Source of the DNA: Pyrinomonadaceae bacterium
GTDB lineage: Bacteria; Acidobacteriota; Blastocatellia; Pyrinomonadales; Pyrinomonadaceae
Direction of reading: 5' to 3'
Assembly: GCA_013812565.1 (NCBI GenBank)
Contig: JACCTF010000811.1
Span: 1 to 15,660, forward strand
DNA length: 15,660 nt
Both the position numbers and the translations under genes were made by a program. Numbering within the stretch: the first letter of the stretch is position 1; each line of letters opens with the position of its first letter. Positions 5,339 through 12,377 of the stretch are shown here, piece by piece. Under the pieces are notes generated by a model. It had not been told where the DNA came from. It did not search any database and was given only the letters and a program-made list of their open reading frames with translations.

Positions 5339-5839
5339 TTACCTTCTTCCCCCGTACCGCGTAAGTAGCTTGTCGAAATTCGCTGAATAGATGGCGGCGA
5401 CAACCCACTTATCCCTCGGACGAAACACCCCGAGCATAATCCTACGATGGCGTACGATGCCTTCTGCATCGACCACCACAATGGCGCGGGTAATCCAACT
5501 CGGCATCCACCATTGGCCGGTGTATCTCTTGGTGACACTGCCGTCAGTATCCGCCAGTAACGTGAGTGGGAGATTGTGATGTTTGGCGAACTTTTGGTGC
5601 GATTCAACCGTGCCCGCTGACACCCCGACAATCTCGGCTCCGGTGGCGATATATTCAGACCAGTGATCACGTACGGAACATAACTGTTTCGTGCATACGA
5701 GCGTCTCGTTGCCCGGATAAAAAAGGAAAGCGACTATTCGACCGCGCTTGTCGGACAGCCGCCAATCTCTGCCTTGCCCGTCCTGAAGTGTGAAGTCAGG
5801 CGCTTGCGTGCCGACAAATGCGTCCGCAGCTTGGCTCAT
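5339..5839 (-). CDS. PrxQ/BCP-type peroxiredoxin
   Basis: A 166-residue thiol peroxidase starting at ATG 5839, after AAAGGA with a 7-base gap. The AhpC-TSA fold begins GTQAPDFTLQDGQG. The catalytic motif PxxxTxxC is present as P42, T46 and peroxidatic C49. A second cysteine five residues on (C54, in VCTKQLC) is the intrahelical resolving cysteine of the PrxQ/BCP subfamily, and R118 fits the conserved active-site arginine. Such enzymes reduce hydrogen peroxide and alkyl hydroperoxides in the cytoplasm using thioredoxin. No signal peptide is present. It lies 64 bases after an excisionase-like HTH gene and before two small hydrophilic genes on the same strand, so it may be governed by the operator upstream of the HTH gene. 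Confidence 0.9.
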   Translation of the reverse strand: MSQAADAFVGTQAPDFTLQDGQGRDWRLSDKRGRIVAFLFYPGNETLVCTKQLCSVRDHWSEYIATGAEIVGVSAGTVESHQKFAKHHNLPLTLLADTDGSVTKRYTGQWWMPSWITRAIVVVDAEGIVRHRRIMLGVFRPRDKWVVAAIYSANFDKLLTRYGGRR

Positions 5840-5903
5840 TGACTTATCCTTTACTACCCTTCCTGAATGCTTGGTTTAGCTTCTGAGGGATTTTATCTGT
5901 GTG

Positions 5904-6146
5904 CTATATTTCGCCGTCACTCGTAGGGGCTACGATCACTTGCTGGGAAGGTCTGCCAAGCTGTGGCGGCTCAAAAGATCTAACGGACTCGATAGGAATG
6001 TACCAGACTGGTCCGCGCTCACTTTCCTTACGCTCAGCACCTTTAAATCTGCCTTCCCTCGTCCATTGTGCAATCGTCGGATAGCTAACGGCGATGCCTC
6101 TCTCTTTAAGTAAGGATCGCGCTTCTTTAGTAGTCACCATCTTCAT
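5904..6146 (-). CDS. Excisionase/MerR-like helix-turn-helix DNA-binding protein
   Basis: An 80-residue protein with a winged-helix fold of the HTH_17/excisionase type. It reads TTKEARSLLKERGIAVSYPTIAQWTREGRF in the helix-turn-helix, then a wing (GPVWYIPIESVRSF) at residues 45-57, and a short Pro/Gln tail. The start may be ATG 6146 or ATG 6140 (MVTTKEA). A sigma70-like promoter places the transcript start within a few bases of 6146, so the mRNA may be leaderless. Two copies of ATAGCATCCTAT flank the promoter elements and are the obvious candidate for autoregulation. The peroxiredoxin gene follows on the same strand. Proteins of this type act as transcription regulators or recombination directionality factors; no recombinase is visible, so a regulator is more likely here. 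Confidence 0.75.
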   Translation of the reverse strand: MKMVTTKEARSLLKERGIAVSYPTIAQWTREGRFKGAERKESERGPVWYIPIESVRSFEPPQLGRPSQQVIVAPTSDGEI

Positions 6147-6154
6147 GAGCCAAT

Positions 6155-6183
6155 TTTATAGCATCCTATGAGAAATGGCTCAA
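6155..6183 (-). promoter_or_regulatory. Sigma70-like promoter of the HTH-peroxiredoxin operon
   Basis: On the minus strand, TTGAGC (6183-6178) and TATAAA (6160-6155) are separated by exactly 17 bases. Only eight bases lie between the -10 box and ATG 6146, which leaves essentially no untranslated leader. Confidence 0.6.
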
Positions 6184-6203
6184 CAAAATACATAGCATCC
6201 TAT
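6158..6203. repeat. Pair of 12-bp operator-like direct repeats
   Basis: ATAGCATCCTAT occurs exactly at 6158-6169 and 6192-6203, 34 bases apart. One copy covers the -10 box and spacer of the promoter; the other lies just upstream of the -35 box. The ends ATAG and CTAT are complementary, so each copy is a partial palindrome. The placement suggests repression by the HTH protein encoded directly downstream. Confidence 0.55.
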
Positions 6204-6309
6204 TGATATTAAATCATGCTGAACGATATGGAATGGTCGGATGAACTAGCGGTATAAACAACTACGCTTGCACAGAACGAAGGGTCGAGTCTTCACGGGC
6301 TCGCCTCTT

Positions 6310-6534
6310 TTACTGTCTATACCATAGCAAGTACAAGACGAATATCAACACTAGCACTTGAACCAATAATGACACGTAGAATACCACGATGATGTTGCGC
6401 GCTTTCTTTCTCCATACCTTTAGGACCTCCTGTGCTTGCACGTCCTCTGGATTCATCTCTCCGGTCGAACGGCGGTGTTCGATGATAGAGATCTGTAACA
6501 TCTCCCGATTAGCATTCTGTGAACCAGGTATCAC
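6310..6534 (-). CDS. Small single-pass membrane protein, unknown
   Basis: The start is set at GTG 6534 because a full AAGGAGG lies five bases upstream. The ATG at 6549 would precede that site and have none of its own. The 74-residue product has a polar N-terminal half, then a basic patch (VWRKKARN) directly before one strong membrane helix, residues about 47-71 (NIIVVFYVSLLVQVLVLIFV and on), ending WYRQ. The positive residues ahead of the helix predict a cytoplasmic N-terminus with the short C-terminus outside. I do not recognise a family. It resembles small plasmid- or phage-borne membrane proteins (holin, toxin or entry-exclusion-like) only in size and layout. Confidence 0.6.
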   Translation of the reverse strand: MIPGSQNANREMLQISIIEHRRSTGEMNPEDVQAQEVLKVWRKKARNIIVVFYVSLLVQVLVLIFVLYLLWYRQ

Positions 6535-6539
6535 TGTGC

Positions 6540-6546
6540 CCTCCTT
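6540..6546 (-). promoter_or_regulatory. Start-deciding Shine-Dalgarno site
   Basis: AAGGAGG on the minus strand, five bases before GTG 6534. It lies downstream of the in-frame ATG 6549, so it selects the GTG start for the small membrane protein. Confidence 0.65.
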
Positions 6547-6708
6547 CATATGTCAAAGGCAATGGTTAAAGTTTACAGAGACAGTTGGAGTATCCGTGCC
6601 GCACCACGGCTACGGGGGCAAGACAGTGATAAAACAGTATGGTGAGGGACAGCGGTTGCTGGCAGCGGAGTCCGCGAGAGCATAAGGGAGCGTAGCAGAC
6701 TCAGGCAA

Positions 6709-6738
6709 TCCAGCCGGTTTGCTGTCAAGGCGGCTGGA
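6709..6738. terminator. Stem-loop, possible terminator
   Basis: TCCAGCCG (6709-6716) pairs perfectly with CGGCTGGA (6731-6738) across a 14-nt loop. No T-run follows on the plus strand, and there is no obvious gene upstream to terminate. Its role is uncertain. Confidence 0.3.
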
Positions 6739-6813
6739 CGATATTCCAAACCAAGAAGCAAGTCAAACGTGAATCTATAGAAACTCACGCGAGAAAGCTT
6801 GATTAATCATCAG

Positions 6814-6924
6814 ATGTGCTACCCGTCGTGCGGGCTGTGCGAAGGCTGCAGCGAGGTCATGGACGTGTGGGACGACCGCACGTGGCACAGGGTGCCGGTG
6901 AGTGAGGCGCACAGATTTTCATAA
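6814..6924 (+). CDS. Cysteine-rich mini-ORF, doubtful
   Basis: A 36-codon frame begins MCYPSCGLCEGCSEVMDVW. Cysteines at 2, 6, 9 and 12 give C-x3-C-x2-C-x2-C, like a compact zinc- or iron-sulfur-binding knot. The remainder is acidic and aromatic (DVWDDRTWHRVPV). Local GC content is higher than in the flanks, which favours former coding sequence. The upstream ribosome site is weak. It could be a real microprotein, the conserved start of a truncated gene, or chance. No family is recognised. Confidence 0.3.
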   Translation: MCYPSCGLCEGCSEVMDVWDDRTWHRVPVSEAHRFS

Positions 6925-7067
6925 TCCTCAATATTAAGGATGCGGTTCACTCTGTTGCACACGAAGGAGCAAGTGAACTCGGCCGATGAAAGTGATGAGA
7001 TTCGATGGCCGTTTGAAAGATCAACGCTTCGCCAGCTAAGGCACGTTCAAGAGAGTAGAACTTACGA

Positions 7068-7095
7068 GTACCTTTGCCTGCGTACCTTTGCCTGC
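7068..7095. repeat. 14-bp tandem duplication
   Basis: GTACCTTTGCCTGC occurs twice head to tail (7068-7081 and 7082-7095). It is probably a replication-slippage duplication with no evident function. Confidence 0.7.
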
Positions 7096-7173
7096 GCATC
7101 GTCGAGAGATAGTAGCGCGGCCGGCAGAAGTACCTCTCTCATCAGCCGTCCTGAAGCACTCCCTGGATGGTCG

Positions 7174-7182
7174 TTATCCACC
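7174..7182 (+). promoter_or_regulatory. Single near-consensus DnaA box
   Basis: TTATCCACC matches the consensus TTATCCACA at eight of nine positions. It lies just before the AT-rich stretch 7260-7500. A lone box is weak evidence for an origin; the 15-bp repeats upstream of rep are the better origin candidate. Confidence 0.25.
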
Positions 7183-7570
7183 CACTACTAGCGGAGGTGA
7201 TTTCTCGAAATCGGCATTGGCAATCAGCCTGTCTGCTCCGCCTGAAGACAACCATTATTTTCAACGACTTTGATTAGTAAGTAGATAGATAGCTTAAAAA
7301 AGTATTGCCCAAAAGTTTTATTATCGGAATTGCCGCACGTGGCTTCTAACAACACTTTTTAATACTATGTAGTAACTCAGTTATTAGATATGCAACACCC
7401 GTGAAACAATTCCCCGAACAGCTTGTTTTGAAATTACCTTGGGACATAAAATTAGTAACATGATTCGACCCAAATCAAATCGCGATCATTATCTTTCAAT
7501 GGTTCGGACACTTTTTTGAGGTGCGATTTCCGTAAGTTGTTGATTCTTCAAGAGCGGCTCTAGTAAATCA

Positions 7571-7602
7571 AAGTTAGCTCTACTGGAATCACGGGCTAAC
7601 TT
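7571..7602. other. 8-bp stem-loop in gene-poor region
   Basis: AAGTTAGC (7571-7578) and GCTAACTT (7595-7602) are perfectly complementary with a 16-nt loop. No adjoining gene explains it. It may be part of an untranslated RNA or of an origin structure. Confidence 0.3.
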
Positions 7603-8008
7603 GCATTTAATTCATCAATCGCGCGAAAGGCTGCTGATTTGCTGGGCTTTTTGCCATCAAAAACTGTCCGAACTATTGATCTTTGTTACTTACCTTCAGT
7701 AAAAGGTAGGCTAGTTTTGTCATACATCTGCGAGTTGCGGTGTGTTTCATTGGATCATCTGCTAACGCAGATTGATGTAGGGCTTTATCGTAGACAATTA
7801 AAGAGCGGAGCCTTACTGAAAGCTTTGCACAGCTCGCTTCCCTTCGCTGTTTAGCGCAATCCCTAAAAACCTTTACTCTGCGTAAATTTCAAGTTGTTAT
7901 GCGAGCGCTTCAGTCCATCTCCATATTACACATGTCAGAAAGCGCGACAGGGTTGGCAAGTGAGGCATCTGGTTTCTGGTCTCGAACTGTTACCGAAGCG
8001 GGTTAGAG

Positions 8009-8086
8009 ATGACTTGCGAGTACGCTTGTTGGTTCGGCTGCGAAGAAGGCTCCCGCAATGCTAAGTGGGTGATTGGGATTTGCTGA
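8009..8086 (+). CDS. Cysteine-containing mini-ORF, doubtful
   Basis: A 25-codon frame beginning MTCEYACWFGCEEG, with cysteines at 3, 7 and 11, ends at TGA 8086. Like the frame at 6814, it places spaced cysteines at the very N-terminus. The ribosome site is weak. No family is recognised, and chance remains a fair explanation. Confidence 0.2.
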   Translation: MTCEYACWFGCEEGSRNAKWVIGIC

Positions 8087-8120
8087 GTAACGCATTGCAG
8101 ACCTTACGACATTGACGCGC

Positions 8121-8186
8121 ATGTTCACGCTGCTCGCTATCGCGTTGCTGGTGCTGTTAGTCTTGGTTACAGGTTGGTCGGATTAG
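8121..8186 (+). CDS. 21-residue hydrophobic mini-ORF, doubtful
   Basis: ATG 8121 to TAG 8184-8186 encodes MFTLLAIALLVLLVLVTGWS and D. It is nearly a pure membrane helix with a threonine/tryptophan end. An in-frame TTG lies at 8112. There is no clear ribosome site. It could be a small membrane peptide, such as a type I toxin-like one, the cut-off signal sequence of a lost gene, or chance. Confidence 0.25.
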   Translation: MFTLLAIALLVLLVLVTGWSD

Positions 8187-8347
8187 CATGAGTAACGATG
8201 CTCTCGCGCCGGGTGTGTTCGCAGCGGCGCGCACGAAGTGAACTGAGCATAGTCCGGTGGGGTCGTGTGACCCGCTCAATTTAGATGAGAGTTTTGGGAG
8301 TTGCTCAATCACGAAGCCTGAAGCCCTGTTTGAAAATTGACCCCCAC

Positions 8348-8391
8348 TAAATTTACCGGGGTAAGATTTACCGGGGTAAATTTTTCCGGGG
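8348..8391. repeat. 15-bp repeat cluster A (three units)
   Basis: Three head-to-tail units end at the stop codon side of the parB-position gene: a 14-bp unit at 8348-8361, then TAAGATTTACCGGGG (8362-8376) and TAAATTTTTCCGGGG (8377-8391). They share period, orientation and core with the clusters at 8744-8803 and 10198-10317. They are probable binding sites for a replicon protein. Confidence 0.85.
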
Positions 8392-8396
8392 TTAGG

Positions 8397-8993
8397 TTAG
8401 TCTTTAAGATCTGCTAGTGCGTTAGCTGAGAGGTGCAATATCAGGCCCCGCGCGGCACGGTCCGATCCCCCAAACTTTGCATGATAATCTCCGTCCATCC
8501 GCCGAATTATGTACCCTTCAGCGAACAACGCTTGTAAATGAGCACGACAAGATTTTTCATCCATATTTGTTTTAGCCGCAAGCCGGGGGGTGCTCACAAC
8601 TATATCTCGCTCTGTGGCTTCACTCCATCTATAAAGGCGTAACAAGATGGCCTGACGTGCTGGAGGAAAGCGCGGAAGGATAACGTCTAAGAAGGCGTCT
8701 AACTCCGGAAGTGGTTTGACATCTACCGACCCGGTATGGGCGGTAGATTTTACCGGGGTGGATATTACCCCGGTAGATTTTACCGGGGTGGATATTACCG
8801 GGGTAGGTTGATTTAGTAAAACTTCGGCACGTTCATGAATGTCTGTTTCCCCGCGACCTTCGACAGCTTCATTAAGGAGGTCTGCCATCGGCGAAGCAGG
8901 GCGACGAATTTGGAAACTGGCGGGAATCACATTTCGCGCGAATTTTGGACCGGCTTGCCGCGATTCTTCACTTGGCTTTGTTTGTTTGACCAT
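8397..8993 (-). CDS. Winged-helix protein in the parB position, probable centromere-binding factor
   Basis: The 198-residue product starts at ATG 8993, only 10 bases after the parA stop, so translation is probably coupled. Residues 1-60 are basic and look disordered. Residues 64-83 are four pentapeptide units (TPVIS, TPVKS, TGVIS, TPVKS) encoded by four 15-bp DNA repeats. Residues about 95-170 look like a winged helix, with helices AILLRLYRWSE, TPRLAAKTNM and KSCRAHLQALFAEGYIIRR. No ParB/Spo0J nuclease-like CTPase motif is present, so this is not classical ParB. By position next to parA it should be the DNA-binding adaptor that links plasmid DNA to ParA, and the 15-bp repeats are its obvious candidate target. 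That role is inferred. A replication or copy-control regulator is the main alternative. Confidence 0.65.
   Translation of the reverse strand: MVKQTKPSEESRQAGPKFARNVIPASFQIRRPASPMADLLNEAVEGRGETDIHERAEVLLNQPTPVISTPVKSTGVISTPVKSTAHTGSVDVKPLPELDAFLDVILPRFPPARQAILLRLYRWSEATERDIVVSTPRLAAKTNMDEKSCRAHLQALFAEGYIIRRMDGDYHAKFGGSDRAARGLILHLSANALADLKD
8744..8803. repeat. 15-bp repeat cluster B inside a coding sequence (four units)
   Basis: Four exact 15-bp units lie within the parB-position gene: 8744-8758 and 8774-8788 are TAGATTTTACCGGGG, 8759-8773 is TGGATATTACCCCGG and 8789-8803 is TGGATATTACCGGGG. In the second unit the core ACCGGGGT is replaced by its reverse complement ACCCCGGT. Fifteen bases is five codons, so the array stays in frame and yields a pentapeptide repeat. 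A degenerate unit may precede it at 8720-8734. Confidence 0.9.
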
Positions 8994-9003
8994 TACCTAC
9001 GTC

Positions 9004-9864
9004 TCACTTCGCCATACGGATCGAGCGTTTCTCATCTTTCTTTCGCGCGGGCAGTTGGAGGCGATTAAGGACTTCTAAAGCAAGCTCATCAAACTGTTGG
9101 ATAGCTCGAATCGAACCCGCTGACTGCTCTTGATATGCGTGAATCGGCACGTGGTACGCCGGAGCCTCTGCCAGTTTGGTGTTCACCGTAATCATGGTCT
9201 CGAACAGCCTGGGCCCAAGCGTGGCATCCTGACGAACGGCTTCAACCGCATTTCTCGCTAAACTGGTTCGGGCGTCGAATAAAGTCATCAGCGCACCGAG
9301 AATGTTGAGTTTGCGCCGTGCGATCATTTCATCGAGACTCTGTAATAGATCACCGACTCCTTCGAGAGGTAGGTATTGGGCTGCAACGGGAACTATTACA
9401 TGTTCTGCCGCTTTGAGCGCGGCCGTAAACAACAATCCTAGATTCGGTGGACAATCAAGGATAAGGAAATCATAGTGCTCGGCAACATCCCGTAGAGCCT
9501 CTTCCAGACGATCAATTGCCGGCGCGGTGTCGCGATCAAAAGCGGCCATCCCTATGTTTGATGGAATTATATCGAGTCGCGCAAACGACGTTGTGTAGAC
9601 AGCGCTTCGGATATGCTCAAAGGGCAGACGCATCGGCCGTCCAGGCTGTGCATGATTCCAGCGCGTGCAGATTACATCGGTTAATGTTGCATCGAGTTTT
9701 TCGCGATCGTAGACAAAGGTGGAGGCGTGGGCCTGCGGGTCACAGTCAACGAGCGCGACTTCATAACCAACATTGGCAAGAGCGGACGCGAGGTTAACAG
9801 CCGTGGTAGTTTTCCCAACCCCGCCTTTCTGATTAGCAATGGCAATGGTGATAGTTTTTCTCAT
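9004..9864 (-). CDS. parA: ParA-type partition ATPase
   Basis: A 286-residue ParA/MinD-superfamily ATPase. The deviant Walker A is at residues 13-19 (KGGVGKT), switch I at DCDPQAH (41-47), and Walker B at FLILDCPP (133-140). There is no N-terminal helix-turn-helix, as in ParA proteins that leave operon control to a partner. The family binds DNA nonspecifically in the ATP state and moves plasmid centromeres through an adaptor protein. The gene lies between a small HTH gene (27-base gap) and the winged-helix gene (10-base gap), all on the minus strand. These three form a partition operon expressed from the promoter at 10157-10129. The C-terminus is basic (ARKKDEKRSIRMAK), consistent with DNA binding. 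Confidence 0.93.
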   Translation of the reverse strand: MRKTITIAIANQKGGVGKTTTAVNLASALANVGYEVALVDCDPQAHASTFVYDREKLDATLTDVICTRWNHAQPGRPMRLPFEHIRSAVYTTSFARLDIIPSNIGMAAFDRDTAPAIDRLEEALRDVAEHYDFLILDCPPNLGLLFTAALKAAEHVIVPVAAQYLPLEGVGDLLQSLDEMIARRKLNILGALMTLFDARTSLARNAVEAVRQDATLGPRLFETMITVNTKLAEAPAYHVPIHAYQEQSAGSIRAIQQFDELALEVLNRLQLPARKKDEKRSIRMAK

Positions 9865-9891
9865 AACAGCCTACTCTTCTTTAACAGAGTG

Positions 9892-10101
9892 CTACGCTGC
9901 TAGGCGTTCAGCAGCCTTCTTAAGACGAATGATGTCAGCCAACCGCACGAGCTTCTTTCTTCGATCGAGCGGGTGTTCTACCGTGCTGATGATCCCCTCA
10001 CGAATCAACCTGGTCATGGTCTTCGACGACACGCCCAAGTAACTCGTCGCCTCTGTTGTTGTCATCCATTGTCTCGTCTCATCTCTCTCTCTGATAAACA
10101 T
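9892..10101 (-). CDS. Small excisionase/MerR-like HTH regulator of the par operon
   Basis: A 69-residue protein starting at ATG 10101, ten bases after GGAGG. A shorter start at 10065 (MTTTEATSYLG) would have only a weak ribosome site. The helix-turn-helix is TTTEATSYLGVSSKTMTRLI, followed by a short wing with EHPLDRRKKLVRLADI, which matches the HTH_17 domain. It is the first gene of the parA operon. Because this ParA lacks its own HTH, the protein is a good candidate for the operon repressor. The candidate operator is the GATGTAAA repeats that overlap the operon promoter. It is similar in type, but not clearly in sequence, to the HTH protein at 5904-6146. Confidence 0.78.
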   Translation of the reverse strand: MFIRERDETRQWMTTTEATSYLGVSSKTMTRLIREGIISTVEHPLDRRKKLVRLADIIRLKKAAERLAA

Positions 10102-10128
10102 AAAGTTTAAGCCTCCGCAGATGCGCGC

Positions 10129-10157
10129 ATTGTAATGATCCTTTTACATCACGTCAA
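10129..10157 (-). promoter_or_regulatory. Strong sigma70-like promoter of the HTH-parA operon
   Basis: On the minus strand, TTGACG (10157-10152) and TACAAT (10134-10129) are spaced by exactly 17 bases. Each differs from consensus by one base. It lies 28 bases upstream of ATG 10101. Confidence 0.75.
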
Positions 10158-10190
10158 CATCCTTTACATCGCTTTCCATCACTTTCCGCC
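10143..10190. repeat. 10-bp-phased short repeats over the par promoter
   Basis: TTTACATC occurs at 10143-10150 and 10163-10170, followed by TTTCCATC at 10173-10180 and TTTCCGCC at 10183-10190. All are in register with a 10-bp period, one helical turn. The first copy lies in the promoter spacer and the others lie upstream of the -35 box, as expected for a cooperative operator on one DNA face. Confidence 0.55.
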
Positions 10191-10197
10191 AGGGCAG

Positions 10198-10317
10198 TAA
10201 ATTCTACCGGGGTAAATTCTACCGGGGTAAATTCTACCCCTCTCAAATCCACGCTGGTGCAATCTACCACCGTATATTTAAGCCCGGTAAATTCCACCAC
10301 GGTAAAAATTGTTGTGG
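10198..10317. repeat. 15-bp repeat cluster C: eight-unit array between par and rep promoters
   Basis: Eight units fit an unbroken 15-bp register. Units 1 and 2 (10198-10227) are identical TAAATTCTACCGGGG. Unit 3 (10228-10242) starts TAAATTCTACCCC. Units 4 to 8 are degenerate but keep the T-rich start and GG end: TCAAATCCACGCTGG, TGCAATCTACCACCG, TATATTTAAGCCCGG, TAAATTCCACCACGG and TAAAAATTGTTGTGG. The array ends at the rep -35 box. This position, upstream of a replication gene, is typical of iteron origins and copy-control sites. Confidence 0.85.
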
Positions 10318-10347
10318 ATTGTCACAACTGAAAGCTCGTGTTAGAAG
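10311..10347 (+). promoter_or_regulatory. Candidate rep promoter with overlapping palindromic operator
   Basis: TTGTCA (10319-10324) and TAGAAG (10342-10347) are spaced by 17 bases. The perfect palindrome GTTGTG-N6-CACAAC (10311-10328) covers the -35 box and the end of the repeat array. This suggests autoregulation. The -10 box is a weak match. The rest of the 10102-10444 gap holds the par promoter, the repeat array and the rep ribosome site AAGGAG (10431-10436). Confidence 0.5.
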
Positions 10348-10444
10348 GCTTACTGACGGAGTTGCAGTTGGAAGTTTGATCCACCAATCAACAACGAAGT
10401 CGCGTGAGAATCTGAATACCACAGGAACGTAAGGAGAGGAACAA

Positions 10445-11620
10445 ATGTCAGCACTAGCGCAGGAAGCTCGTTTCGTGAGGCGAACATCGCTAAAGACGGG
10501 CGAGTACAGAACAAATTTCCGGCAGATTGATTGTGATGTTATTAGCGCGCTCACATCGGCCGAAGCGAGCCGGGTAACCCCCTTGATGAGCAAGATATAT
10601 CTTCGTTTGATCAGCGCTCCGACCAGTTTCTGGGAGCGGGACGGGGTCTTGCGATTTGCCGGTGACGAGAGTGAAGGGAAATGGCTAACAGCTTGGGCGC
10701 AACTTATCAGGTTGCTGGAAGTAGCTAACGCGACGGCCCACAAAGCGATTTCGTGGATGCACGAACAGGGAATTGTCGGGTATCACGCGGGCAAGAACGG
10801 CGTTGGGATTCGGATTTTTATCAACCGCGCATCTTCATCCATCGCTTCGGGGTCTTCGCGCGGCCAAAAAAATTTGCAGCTTATCCCTATTCCATCTGAT
10901 GCAAATCCTATTTCATCCGGCGTAACACCCTTTAAGGAAAGCTTTGCTTGCTTAGAAGAAGTTTTAGAAAAAGATTTAAATCCGCACGCACCAAAAGACG
11001 GCGCGGAGAAACACCGAGTGGGTGAAACAGCTTCTCAGACAGAATCCGTTTCGAGTCGCGTGACACAAACAGTTGCTAAGCAAGAAGTAGTCGCAGCGGA
11101 GACGGTGAGGGCTAACAAGCCTAGTGTGTTCGTGGTGGATGAGATGGTTCAACGACTCAGAAGCGAGCTGGAACCCTACCTTAAAACTGCTGCTTCGCAA
11201 GCAGCCGCGCGCGAGCACGAGCAAACCCGCCAATGGCTTGAGCAACGTGGACTGCCGAAAGCGGCGCGTGTGGCTCAGCGTGAGGCTTATAACGTTCTCC
11301 GGCAACACGGAGTGATAACTTCCGCTCAAGGGCAAGCGCGCTCTGAGTTGGAGGTGGGGCGTGCGAGTTCCTACAAGCCTCCCGAAGCACGACCACGCAC
11401 TCGGGAAGAGATCGCGGAAGTAGCTGAAATGTGTGTCTCACTCTATGAAGCACAAGGCAAGTCTATTGACCTCACCCTCGCTGAAATCAAATCTGAAGGA
11501 GGTTGGCTGTTGCCGGAAGATGCGATGAAAGCGTATGAGGCGGCGCAATTACTAATGCTTACTAGAAAAGGAAACCAAGTTGATGCGCGTCCAAGCAACA
11601 TCTCATACGCTTCCTGTTAG
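10445..11620 (+). CDS. Putative plasmid replication initiator with N-terminal winged helix
   Basis: A 391-residue protein starting at ATG 10445 after AAGGAGAGG. Residues about 45-128 form a winged helix ([19 protein letters not shown], then [20 protein letters not shown], then the wing [17 protein letters not shown]). A low-complexity Ser/Glu/Val linker spans about 130-225. A helical, Ala/Arg/Gln-rich middle follows, and the C-terminal domain (about 310-375) is acidic and helical. The layout resembles DnaD-like or Rep proteins that bind origin repeats and then recruit a helicase loader. The context agrees: it lies directly downstream of the 15-bp repeat array and overlaps a DnaC-like gene. 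No Rep catalytic tyrosine or primase motif is evident. The initiator role is inferred from context; a transcription regulator is the alternative. Confidence 0.65.
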
Positions 11621-12377
11621 TCAATCTATACCAGGGATGAATACTCAGACGGAAGATACAGGACGACAATTTCGCAATGAGGCTGAGGTTGTTTGCTCAT
11701 TCTGCTTCGGCACGGGGATGGAGGTAGTGCCGGACAAAGGAGCGCGTCGCTGCCGATGTCTTGAGCAAAATAAAAAAACCAAGTTGATTGAGCAGGCACG
11801 CATTCCGTGCCGTCACCAACAGTGCACGCTCGCCAACTATCACCCCACGCCGGGCAACAGCACTCAGTTGCGTGCCTTCAACGATGCCTTCCGGTTGGCC
11901 GACCAGTTTCCGGTGGTTGATCGTGGGCTGCTGCTGATGGGAACGGTCGGAGTGGGTAAGACGCACCTCGCGGTTGCCATCCTTCGCAAGATATTAGAGA
12001 AAGGTGTCCAGAGTTTGTTCTATGAGTTTGGGGCGCTGTTGAAGGAGATTCAAGACTCGTACAATCCGGTGTCGAAGACTTCAGAACTGCGTGTGCTCGC
12101 GCCCGTGTACGAGGCCGAGGTGCTGGTGTTGGATGAACTCGGTGCCGTAAAGCCAACTGATTGGGTCAGGGACACGATGATGCAGATTATTAGCAAGCGC
12201 TATAACGAGCGGCGTTTAACGATCTTTACAACGAACTACATGGACAGTCGCCGCACTGCGGCCGAAGAAACCCTGGAAGATCGCATCGGCGTCCGACTGA
12301 GAAGCCGTTTGTACGAGATGTGTAAAACGGTGCAGGTCGAAGGCGACGACTATCGCCGCCGTTTCGACACGCAATAG
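11583..12377 (+). CDS. DnaC/IstB-like AAA+ helicase loader with N-terminal zinc motif
   Basis: About 264 residues. The start overlaps the end of rep. TTG 11580 or ATG 11583 sits at the right distance from AAGGA (11568-11572), while ATG 11637 lies after the rep stop but lacks a good site. Counting from TTG 11580, the features are a probable zinc-binding cluster C39-x2-C42 with C58-x-C60, Walker A GTVGVGKT (121-128), Walker B VLVLDE (181-186), sensor TTN (217-219) and the arginine-rich [13 protein letters not shown] near the end. DnaC-like loaders place the replicative helicase on origin DNA. IstB transposition ATPases share the fold, but no IstA is nearby and coupling to rep favours replication. 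The sequence style matches chromosomal acidobacterial homologues closely. Confidence 0.85.

Follow-up and report, generated by a model that had tools for sequence, protein, structure and literature searches.

The four 15-bp palindromic units at positions 8741..8806 of the window (the whole 15,660-nucleotide stretch of DNA from a Pyrinomonadaceae bacterium that was analyzed) lie in frame within the gene that follows parA, and they encode a pentapeptide repeat in the predicted linker of its 198 amino acid product. These repeats, accommodated within a permissive linker, probably serve as parS-type (centromere) sites for the winged-helix protein that the operon itself encodes. The sites, their reading frame, a constraint on the DNA itself and the association of the array with the par operon are established.

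The window is contig G000:C1087 of a draft genome of 5.34 Mb in 1,103 contigs. The replicon core is in mid-window, where a minus-strand par operon of three genes is divergent from rep and a helicase loader gene. The first gene of the operon (9892..10101, minus strand) encodes a 69 aa HTH_17/excisionase-like DNA-binding protein, possibly an autorepressor or a rival binder of the repeats. The second (9004..9864, minus strand) is parA, which encodes a Walker-type partition ATPase as seen from profile matches (Pfam AAA_31, E = 4.1e-43; phrog_164, ParA-like, E = 7.2e-61) and from solved relatives, the best of which is the Soj-type segregation protein 1wcv (E = 2.7e-38). The last gene (8397..8993, minus strand) starts 10 bp downstream of parA and encodes the 198 aa winged-helix protein, the proposed centromere-binding protein, with a conserved basic N-terminus and a disordered linker. 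The order of parA followed by the winged-helix gene is kept in L005, a related locus, and in the other ParA-bearing loci listed. On the plus strand, 10445..11620 encodes a 391 aa protein with an N-terminal winged-helix region, which is probably the replication initiator (Rep), judging from the adjoining gene at 11580..12377 (plus strand) whose profile matches are to DnaC-like helicase loaders. The draft genome of the window has two more par loci of other types: L051 (G000:C1025), which adjoins a short Rep remnant with an internal stop, and L065 (G000:C518), which bears a TTCAC-GTGAA array. Another related locus, L050, sits on a contig of 448,697 bases.

The repeat unit has a period of 15 bp and is a hyphenated palindrome, TTTACC-SS-GGTAAA, with the core ACCSSGGT. 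Tandem Repeats Finder shows three clusters. Cluster A (8349..8392, period 15) has three units and is located right behind the stop codon of the 198 aa gene. Cluster B (period 15/30) is the in-gene array, with cores at 8752-8759, 8767-8774, 8782-8789 and 8797-8804. Cluster C (10197..10306, period 15) has about seven units between the divergent par operon and rep, and is degenerate toward its right end (10233-10306). The core positions agree with these assignments, and the repeats are found inside and outside of the gene where the preliminary description had placed them. With up to three mismatches, TTTACCNNGGTAAA has 13 matches in the 2,245 bases at 8200-10444 versus 3 in the remaining 13,415 bases; the match at 9671, inside parA, is probably due to chance. 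Core pairs spaced 15 bp apart give five matches in the window and none in 200 shuffles, and the pattern ACCSSGGTNNANNNNACCSSGGT, a core pair 15 bp apart, is confined to this one contig within the 5.34-Mb genome. The spacer bases are not alike between clusters, which argues against recent copying. A 48 aa frame that crosses cluster C (10154-10300, minus strand) reads FTPVEFTPVEFT and resembles the linker peptide, but is probably not a gene. The region of about 1.1 kb past cluster A (7200-8340) has no open reading frame longer than 71 aa and displays an inverted repeat at 7496-7516/7659-7679 (90% complementary).

We infer the identity of the binder, its contact with ParA and the centromere function as follows. 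A dimer of the winged-helix protein would bind each TTTACC-SS-GGTAAA palindrome, and the basic N-terminus of the protein would stimulate ParA. The three clusters (upstream of the operon, in the gene and past its stop codon) would build a single partition complex across the operon, and binding at the upstream cluster C may also repress it. The in-gene sites would dictate the linker, where ACC-NNG-GTA-RAN-YYY reads T-x-V-(K/N/D/E)-(S/I/T), and they could sit there because a disordered linker tolerates many peptides. Alternatively, the small HTH protein may bind the repeats, mainly as operators or as its own centromere, with the 198 aa protein joining via protein contact. Its gene adjoins cluster C and the HTH type changes with the par type: it is XRE-like in L047, L048 and L050, and the HTH is fused to ParA in L043 and L051. 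Both proteins travel with the arrays, so that the array association cannot separate them. However, three clusters spread over 2 kb, with one in and one past the last gene, are more centromere-like than operator-like, and a winged-helix protein encoded behind parA would by position be the expected binder. Binding by the small HTH protein is considered unlikely, though it is the most probable of the alternatives.

Cluster B encodes (TPVIS)(TPVKS)(TGVIS)(TPVKS)T by the codons ACC CCG GTA ATA TCC / ACC CCG GTA AAA TCT / ACC GGG GTA ATA TCC / ACC CCG GTA AAA TCT. These codons and the predicted structure bear out the original proposal of four in-frame units that form a pentapeptide linker before the winged helix. 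One unit had been described as carrying the reverse complement of the core, with a change of TG to TP in the peptide. A flip is present, but the core is itself palindromic, hence merely the central CC/GG is swapped; and the direction is the reverse, as TGV is read from the flipped unit and TPV from the other three (TP to TG).

In the AlphaFold2 model (112 aligned sequences) residues 49–89 are predicted to be disordered and residues from about 95 to 198 are folded with high confidence as a winged helix. Foldseek searches with the model return MarR-type proteins, RepA_N initiators (4pt7 and 5kbj, E about 0.02) and the centromere-binding protein of pNOB8 (4rs8, 5k5q), but no match reaches E ≤ 0.001; the AspA match 4rs8 (TMt 0.58, E = 0.023) is one among many winged helices. 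A sequence search of solved structures gives a best E-value of 0.57, the sole match in the Pfam scan is HTH_24 at E = 0.075, and there is no match in NCBIfam. Thus, on the model, the winged-helix fold is clear but the family is not. The protein does not have the features of the canonical ParB (CTPase) family, in that the model is without the N-terminal fold and no ParB domain is matched. Three features of ParA-based (type I) systems are present, i.e. a Walker-type ParA gene, an adjoining DNA-binding partner and par-type-specific repeats with a putative centromere role. Tandem in-gene sites that encode a linker are in turn a property of initiators with an in-gene origin (lambda O, RepA_N).

This property, as found in lambda and pSK41, raises the possibility that the 198 aa protein is an initiator of the lambda O or RepA_N kind with cluster B as an origin in its gene. 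Profiles of phage replication initiators (O-like and others) match the protein weakly (E = 0.0086 to 0.27), as do the RepA_N structures. These profile matches are, however, below the usual significance, and the 198 aa gene ends a parA operon next to which a separate probable initiator and a helicase loader are encoded. An initiator role is thus improbable.

The repeats might instead be replication iterons bound by the 391 aa Rep, with cluster C as the origin and the in-gene copies as extra iterons. Cluster C is directly upstream of rep, and plasmids commonly have iterons next to their rep genes. The Rep family comprises 1,800 proteins, and members were found in 10 of the 162 class genomes. Thirteen stretches were compared, and eleven have parA. 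The third genes of these operons are related to the 198 aa family: a profile of 11 sequences (from nine of these loci, L064 and L065) aligns with it across the winged-helix part (hhalign probability 96.5, E = 7.9e-10). The arrays differ among loci. L040 has an array with a period of 19–20, L041 and L044 have TTCAC-GTGAA array types, L042 a ACCCGTCTC array and L043 a TACCCCCGTA/TACACAGGTA array, and L045 and L049 have two-copy repeats only. In L042, L043 and L044, which belong to one draft genome (G429), the Reps are 73–89% identical, versus 20–42% for the ParAs and 18–23% for the third genes, and the arrays are unlike. Conversely, L041 and L044 (Reps 51%, ParAs 89% identical) have an array type in common, and L047 and L048 (Reps 46%, ParAs 90% identical) likewise share theirs. 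Compared with the 10 of 162 class genomes for Rep, the window-type tandem core pair is found in 2 of 119 family genomes, which are the two with a full-length 198 aa type protein, and the 24-bp palindrome of a second par type in 3 of 119, which are the three with close relatives of the L048 protein, subject to possibly imperfect binning of the draft genomes. Since arrays differ despite similar Reps and are shared when ParAs match, array type goes with the par operon and not with Rep. The iteron explanation is accordingly very doubtful.

Among the loci scanned for in-gene sites, L040, L041, L042, L043 and L044, which represent four par types, have arrays only outside of the gene; isolated partial matches in the third gene of L041 and in that of L044 are attributed to chance. 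The in-gene arrangement is therefore optional and not needed by such systems generally. In L045, a 21-bp palindromic unit (TTATACC...GGTATAA) occurs twice at 1196-1236; the pair follows directly on the third par gene's stop codon, a place equivalent to that of cluster A of the window. In L041, the region 5782-7652 has a 334 aa frame, between two array blocks, which we take to resemble a transposase; an internal stop interrupts the Rep gene of this locus. Two genomes carry several Rep loci: G429 has three (L042, L043, L044) and G480 two (L040, L048). The presence of related Reps with different ParA, third gene and array in one genome looks like compatibility set by par type.

The constraint on the in-gene DNA is seen in the window and in L005, the two loci of this type that were compared as DNA. 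L005 (64% identical) is from an Acidobacteriota genome of the same family and is the only other locus of this type available as DNA; its clusters are at 583-656 upstream, at 2020-2078 in frame and at 2433-2476 right behind the stop codon. Synonymous codons were resampled by locus codon usage with the peptide fixed, and sites were scored by a matrix from intergenic copies only, whose registers were assigned manually at 15-bp intervals and of which several barely match. None of 20,000 draws per locus reached the observed site score, either in the window or in L005, and the outcome was no different in each with a matrix from the other locus alone. GTA encodes 8 of 8 valines within the sites of both loci, versus 17 of 129 in the rest of the locus genes; for threonine, ACC is used in 9 of 9 cases versus 37 of 122. 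As no draw reaches the observed score, the DNA of cluster B is under constraint beyond its peptide; codon bias and resampling agree here with the constraint at synonymous sites predicted in the preliminary description. The combination it had named as contrary to its proposal, a conserved pentapeptide with a lost DNA core, is not found in L005, although two of the four in-gene units there have one mismatch in the 8-bp core. Overall, the original idea of one piece of DNA as centromere and protein linker at once is supported in part.

A second par type, distinct from that of the window, is present in L047, L048 and L050 and has a 24-bp palindrome, CCCCTGYAAT-N4-ATTRCAGGGG. Copies of the palindrome are found ahead of the operon, at two places in the linker that are 57 bp apart in all three loci, and also downstream. 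In frame it reads TPVKKIAGV and variants, where the arms hold T-P-(V/A) and A-G-V and the residues encoded by the spacer vary (KK, KR, MK, QE). Resampling of the six in-gene sites reached the observed score in 0, 1, 3, 44, 0 and 0 of 20,000 draws, using a 24-bp form chosen after looking at the sequence and a matrix built from 31 extragenic copies (six mismatches at most), some of them overlapping; a first resampling with a 25-bp site of wrong spacing gave no signal. Within the sites, alanine is GCA in 8 of 8 cases (37 of 230 elsewhere) and proline is CCT in 6 of 6 (21 of 142), and valine is GTA in just 5 of 10. That the layout recurs with a different motif and a different peptide is the best indication of a linker dictated by the sites. 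The palindrome spacings of 36 and 57 bp in these three loci and of 15 bp in the window are all 15 plus a multiple of 21, i.e. about the same helical phase, which may be chance.

The C-type locus L051, which belongs to the same draft genome as the window, carries TACTCCCGTA repeats in frame. There are no copies outside of the gene on the L051 contig; a similar array is found outside of the gene in L043. This is suggestive of L051 as a possible third case of in-gene sites. An unrelated phage contig (L013), found via the DNA pattern, has nine perfect 15-bp units at 1976-2103 that encode QTPVE repeats; par genes were not seen in this stretch.

Homologues of the window type were found in 234 matched protein clusters, of which 120 were listed, and a profile search gave 247 matches (120 listed, nine of them new), resulting in 129 listed homologues. 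They suggest that winged-helix partition proteins of this kind form a family that is so far uncharacterised. TxV triplets are exactly five residues apart in 124 of 126 linkers among the homologues listed (three of the 129 were not divisible into parts and were dropped), while shuffled linkers have a mean of 1.04. The number of TxV triplets is 2 to 9 in 118 of 120 linkers scored among the homologues listed. In 406 triplets from 125 linkers (four of the 129 listed were dropped), the middle residue is P in 329, G in 36, T in 13, L in 10, A in 6, R, V and S in 3 each, Q in 2 and E in 1. All 406 are encodable by NNG, as the palindrome requires, versus 90% of other linker residues, a test that is weak by itself because P dominates. 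K, E, N and D together account for 320 of the 406 residues that follow TxV versus 850 of 3,453 other linker residues, which fits GTA-RAN. The preceding residue is S, I, T, V, L, F, P, A or M, i.e. has a pyrimidine at the second codon position (serine also has other codons), in 373 of 413 cases versus 1,797 of 3,453. The sequences are related, so these residue counts and the linker-length pairs below are not independent. One clade of homologues has several threonines replaced (APV, SPV, PPV), and this counts against the DNA-site reading. P/G exchange was dropped as an argument, as close homologues show 34 P/G residue pairs versus 48 P/L and 45 P/S.

Linker length is equal in 433 of 806 close homologue pairs and is off by one residue in 222. 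Where the difference is at least 2 aa (151 pairs), 5 aa is the commonest (60 of 151), and 7, 13, 3 and 2 also occur. The 15-bp steps that had been expected for this linker are thus the most frequent of the larger changes, but other steps and the 222 one-residue pairs do not follow them.

Selection on a Pro-rich linker peptide, with the DNA likeness due to recent copying or codon bias, is highly improbable: the pentapeptide is kept in nearly all homologues listed and both P and G suit flexible linkers, but the codons chosen in the sites depart strongly from those usual in the locus and resampled ones do not attain the observed score, the differing cluster spacers argue against recent copying, and in the second par type the arm-encoded residues are kept while spacer-encoded ones vary, with a different peptide that matches its own array.

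The preferred reading, that the repeats are centromere sites of the winged-helix protein, has a tentative wider form, in which the centromere would include, by design rather than by accident, the very gene that encodes its binding protein. In at least two par types, whose motifs differ, binding sites would then write the linker and so couple its length to the number of sites. If this were so, the par gene could not move or duplicate without its cognate centromere, and new partition specificities would have a general means of spreading, as self-contained cassettes, between replicons with the same Rep. One DNA stretch that seems to be both a binding array and a coding sequence provides a clean and testable case. 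The direction of dictation is visible: in two par types, each with its own motif, the peptide follows from the sites. Replicons with related Reps that exchange par modules together with their arrays are also a natural system for studies of plasmid compatibility.

Several known systems share parts of this arrangement. Lambda O (and its relatives in Stx phages) is described in the portions available of PMC6022878 and PMC7466680 as having tandem sites with internal inverted repeats within the gene of their own binder, where they encode a linker; types with six iterons instead of four have 13 extra residues, so that site number and protein length are coupled. The window likewise has tandem palindromic sites in the gene of a putative winged-helix-type binder, encoding its linker. 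Unlike the window protein, lambda O is by these accounts a replication initiator that is not ParA-linked, and its array is the origin. The RepA_N Rep of pSK41 has four Rep boxes central in rep, and the central domain encoded by the ori is a deletable linker (PMC5703833, as excerpted). Here too a site array forms the linker of the protein that probably binds it; however, the excerpted account concerns replication and another sequence family, with no outer clusters around a par operon.

Among partition systems, SCP2 ParA-ParT-parS of Streptomyces has an 18-bp inverted repeat parS in the coding sequence of the binder (PMC12260392, in the part accessible). As in the window, the site is in the gene, the partner is ParA, the N-terminal peptide is basic and a CTPase domain is lacking. 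According to the same part of that source, SCP2 has a single site, a ParB-like M domain and a sliding clamp, whereas the window has a tandem linker array and a C-terminal winged helix. The AspA-ParB-ParA system of the archaeal plasmid pNOB8 (PMC9178275) pairs a winged-helix-type centromere-binding protein with ParA, as the 198 aa protein would be paired; unlike it, AspA is short and needs the adaptor ParB, and the sections available of that paper do not mention an in-gene array. The pCW3-like plasmids of Clostridium perfringens (PMC9426499, in extract) have similar Reps with different partition families and centromere repeats, which underlie compatibility. The similar Reps with different par families, each with its own repeats, are a shared feature, but pCW3-like plasmids use the actin-type ParM and not ParA, and an in-gene array is not mentioned in the extract. 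In pSM19035 ParABS, the contiguous short centromere repeats are bound by a small dimeric protein, and contiguity is needed for the partition complex (PMC9499535, in its accessible text). The repeats of the window are also short and contiguous, with a presumed centromere role, but the pSM19035 binder is a ribbon-helix-helix protein and the accessible text does not mention an in-gene array. The open-licence papers searched yielded no case of a partition protein whose linker is formed by a tandem array. Thus linker-encoding arrays in initiators and a single parS in SCP2 parT are already known, and the linker-forming array in a partition protein is apparently new.
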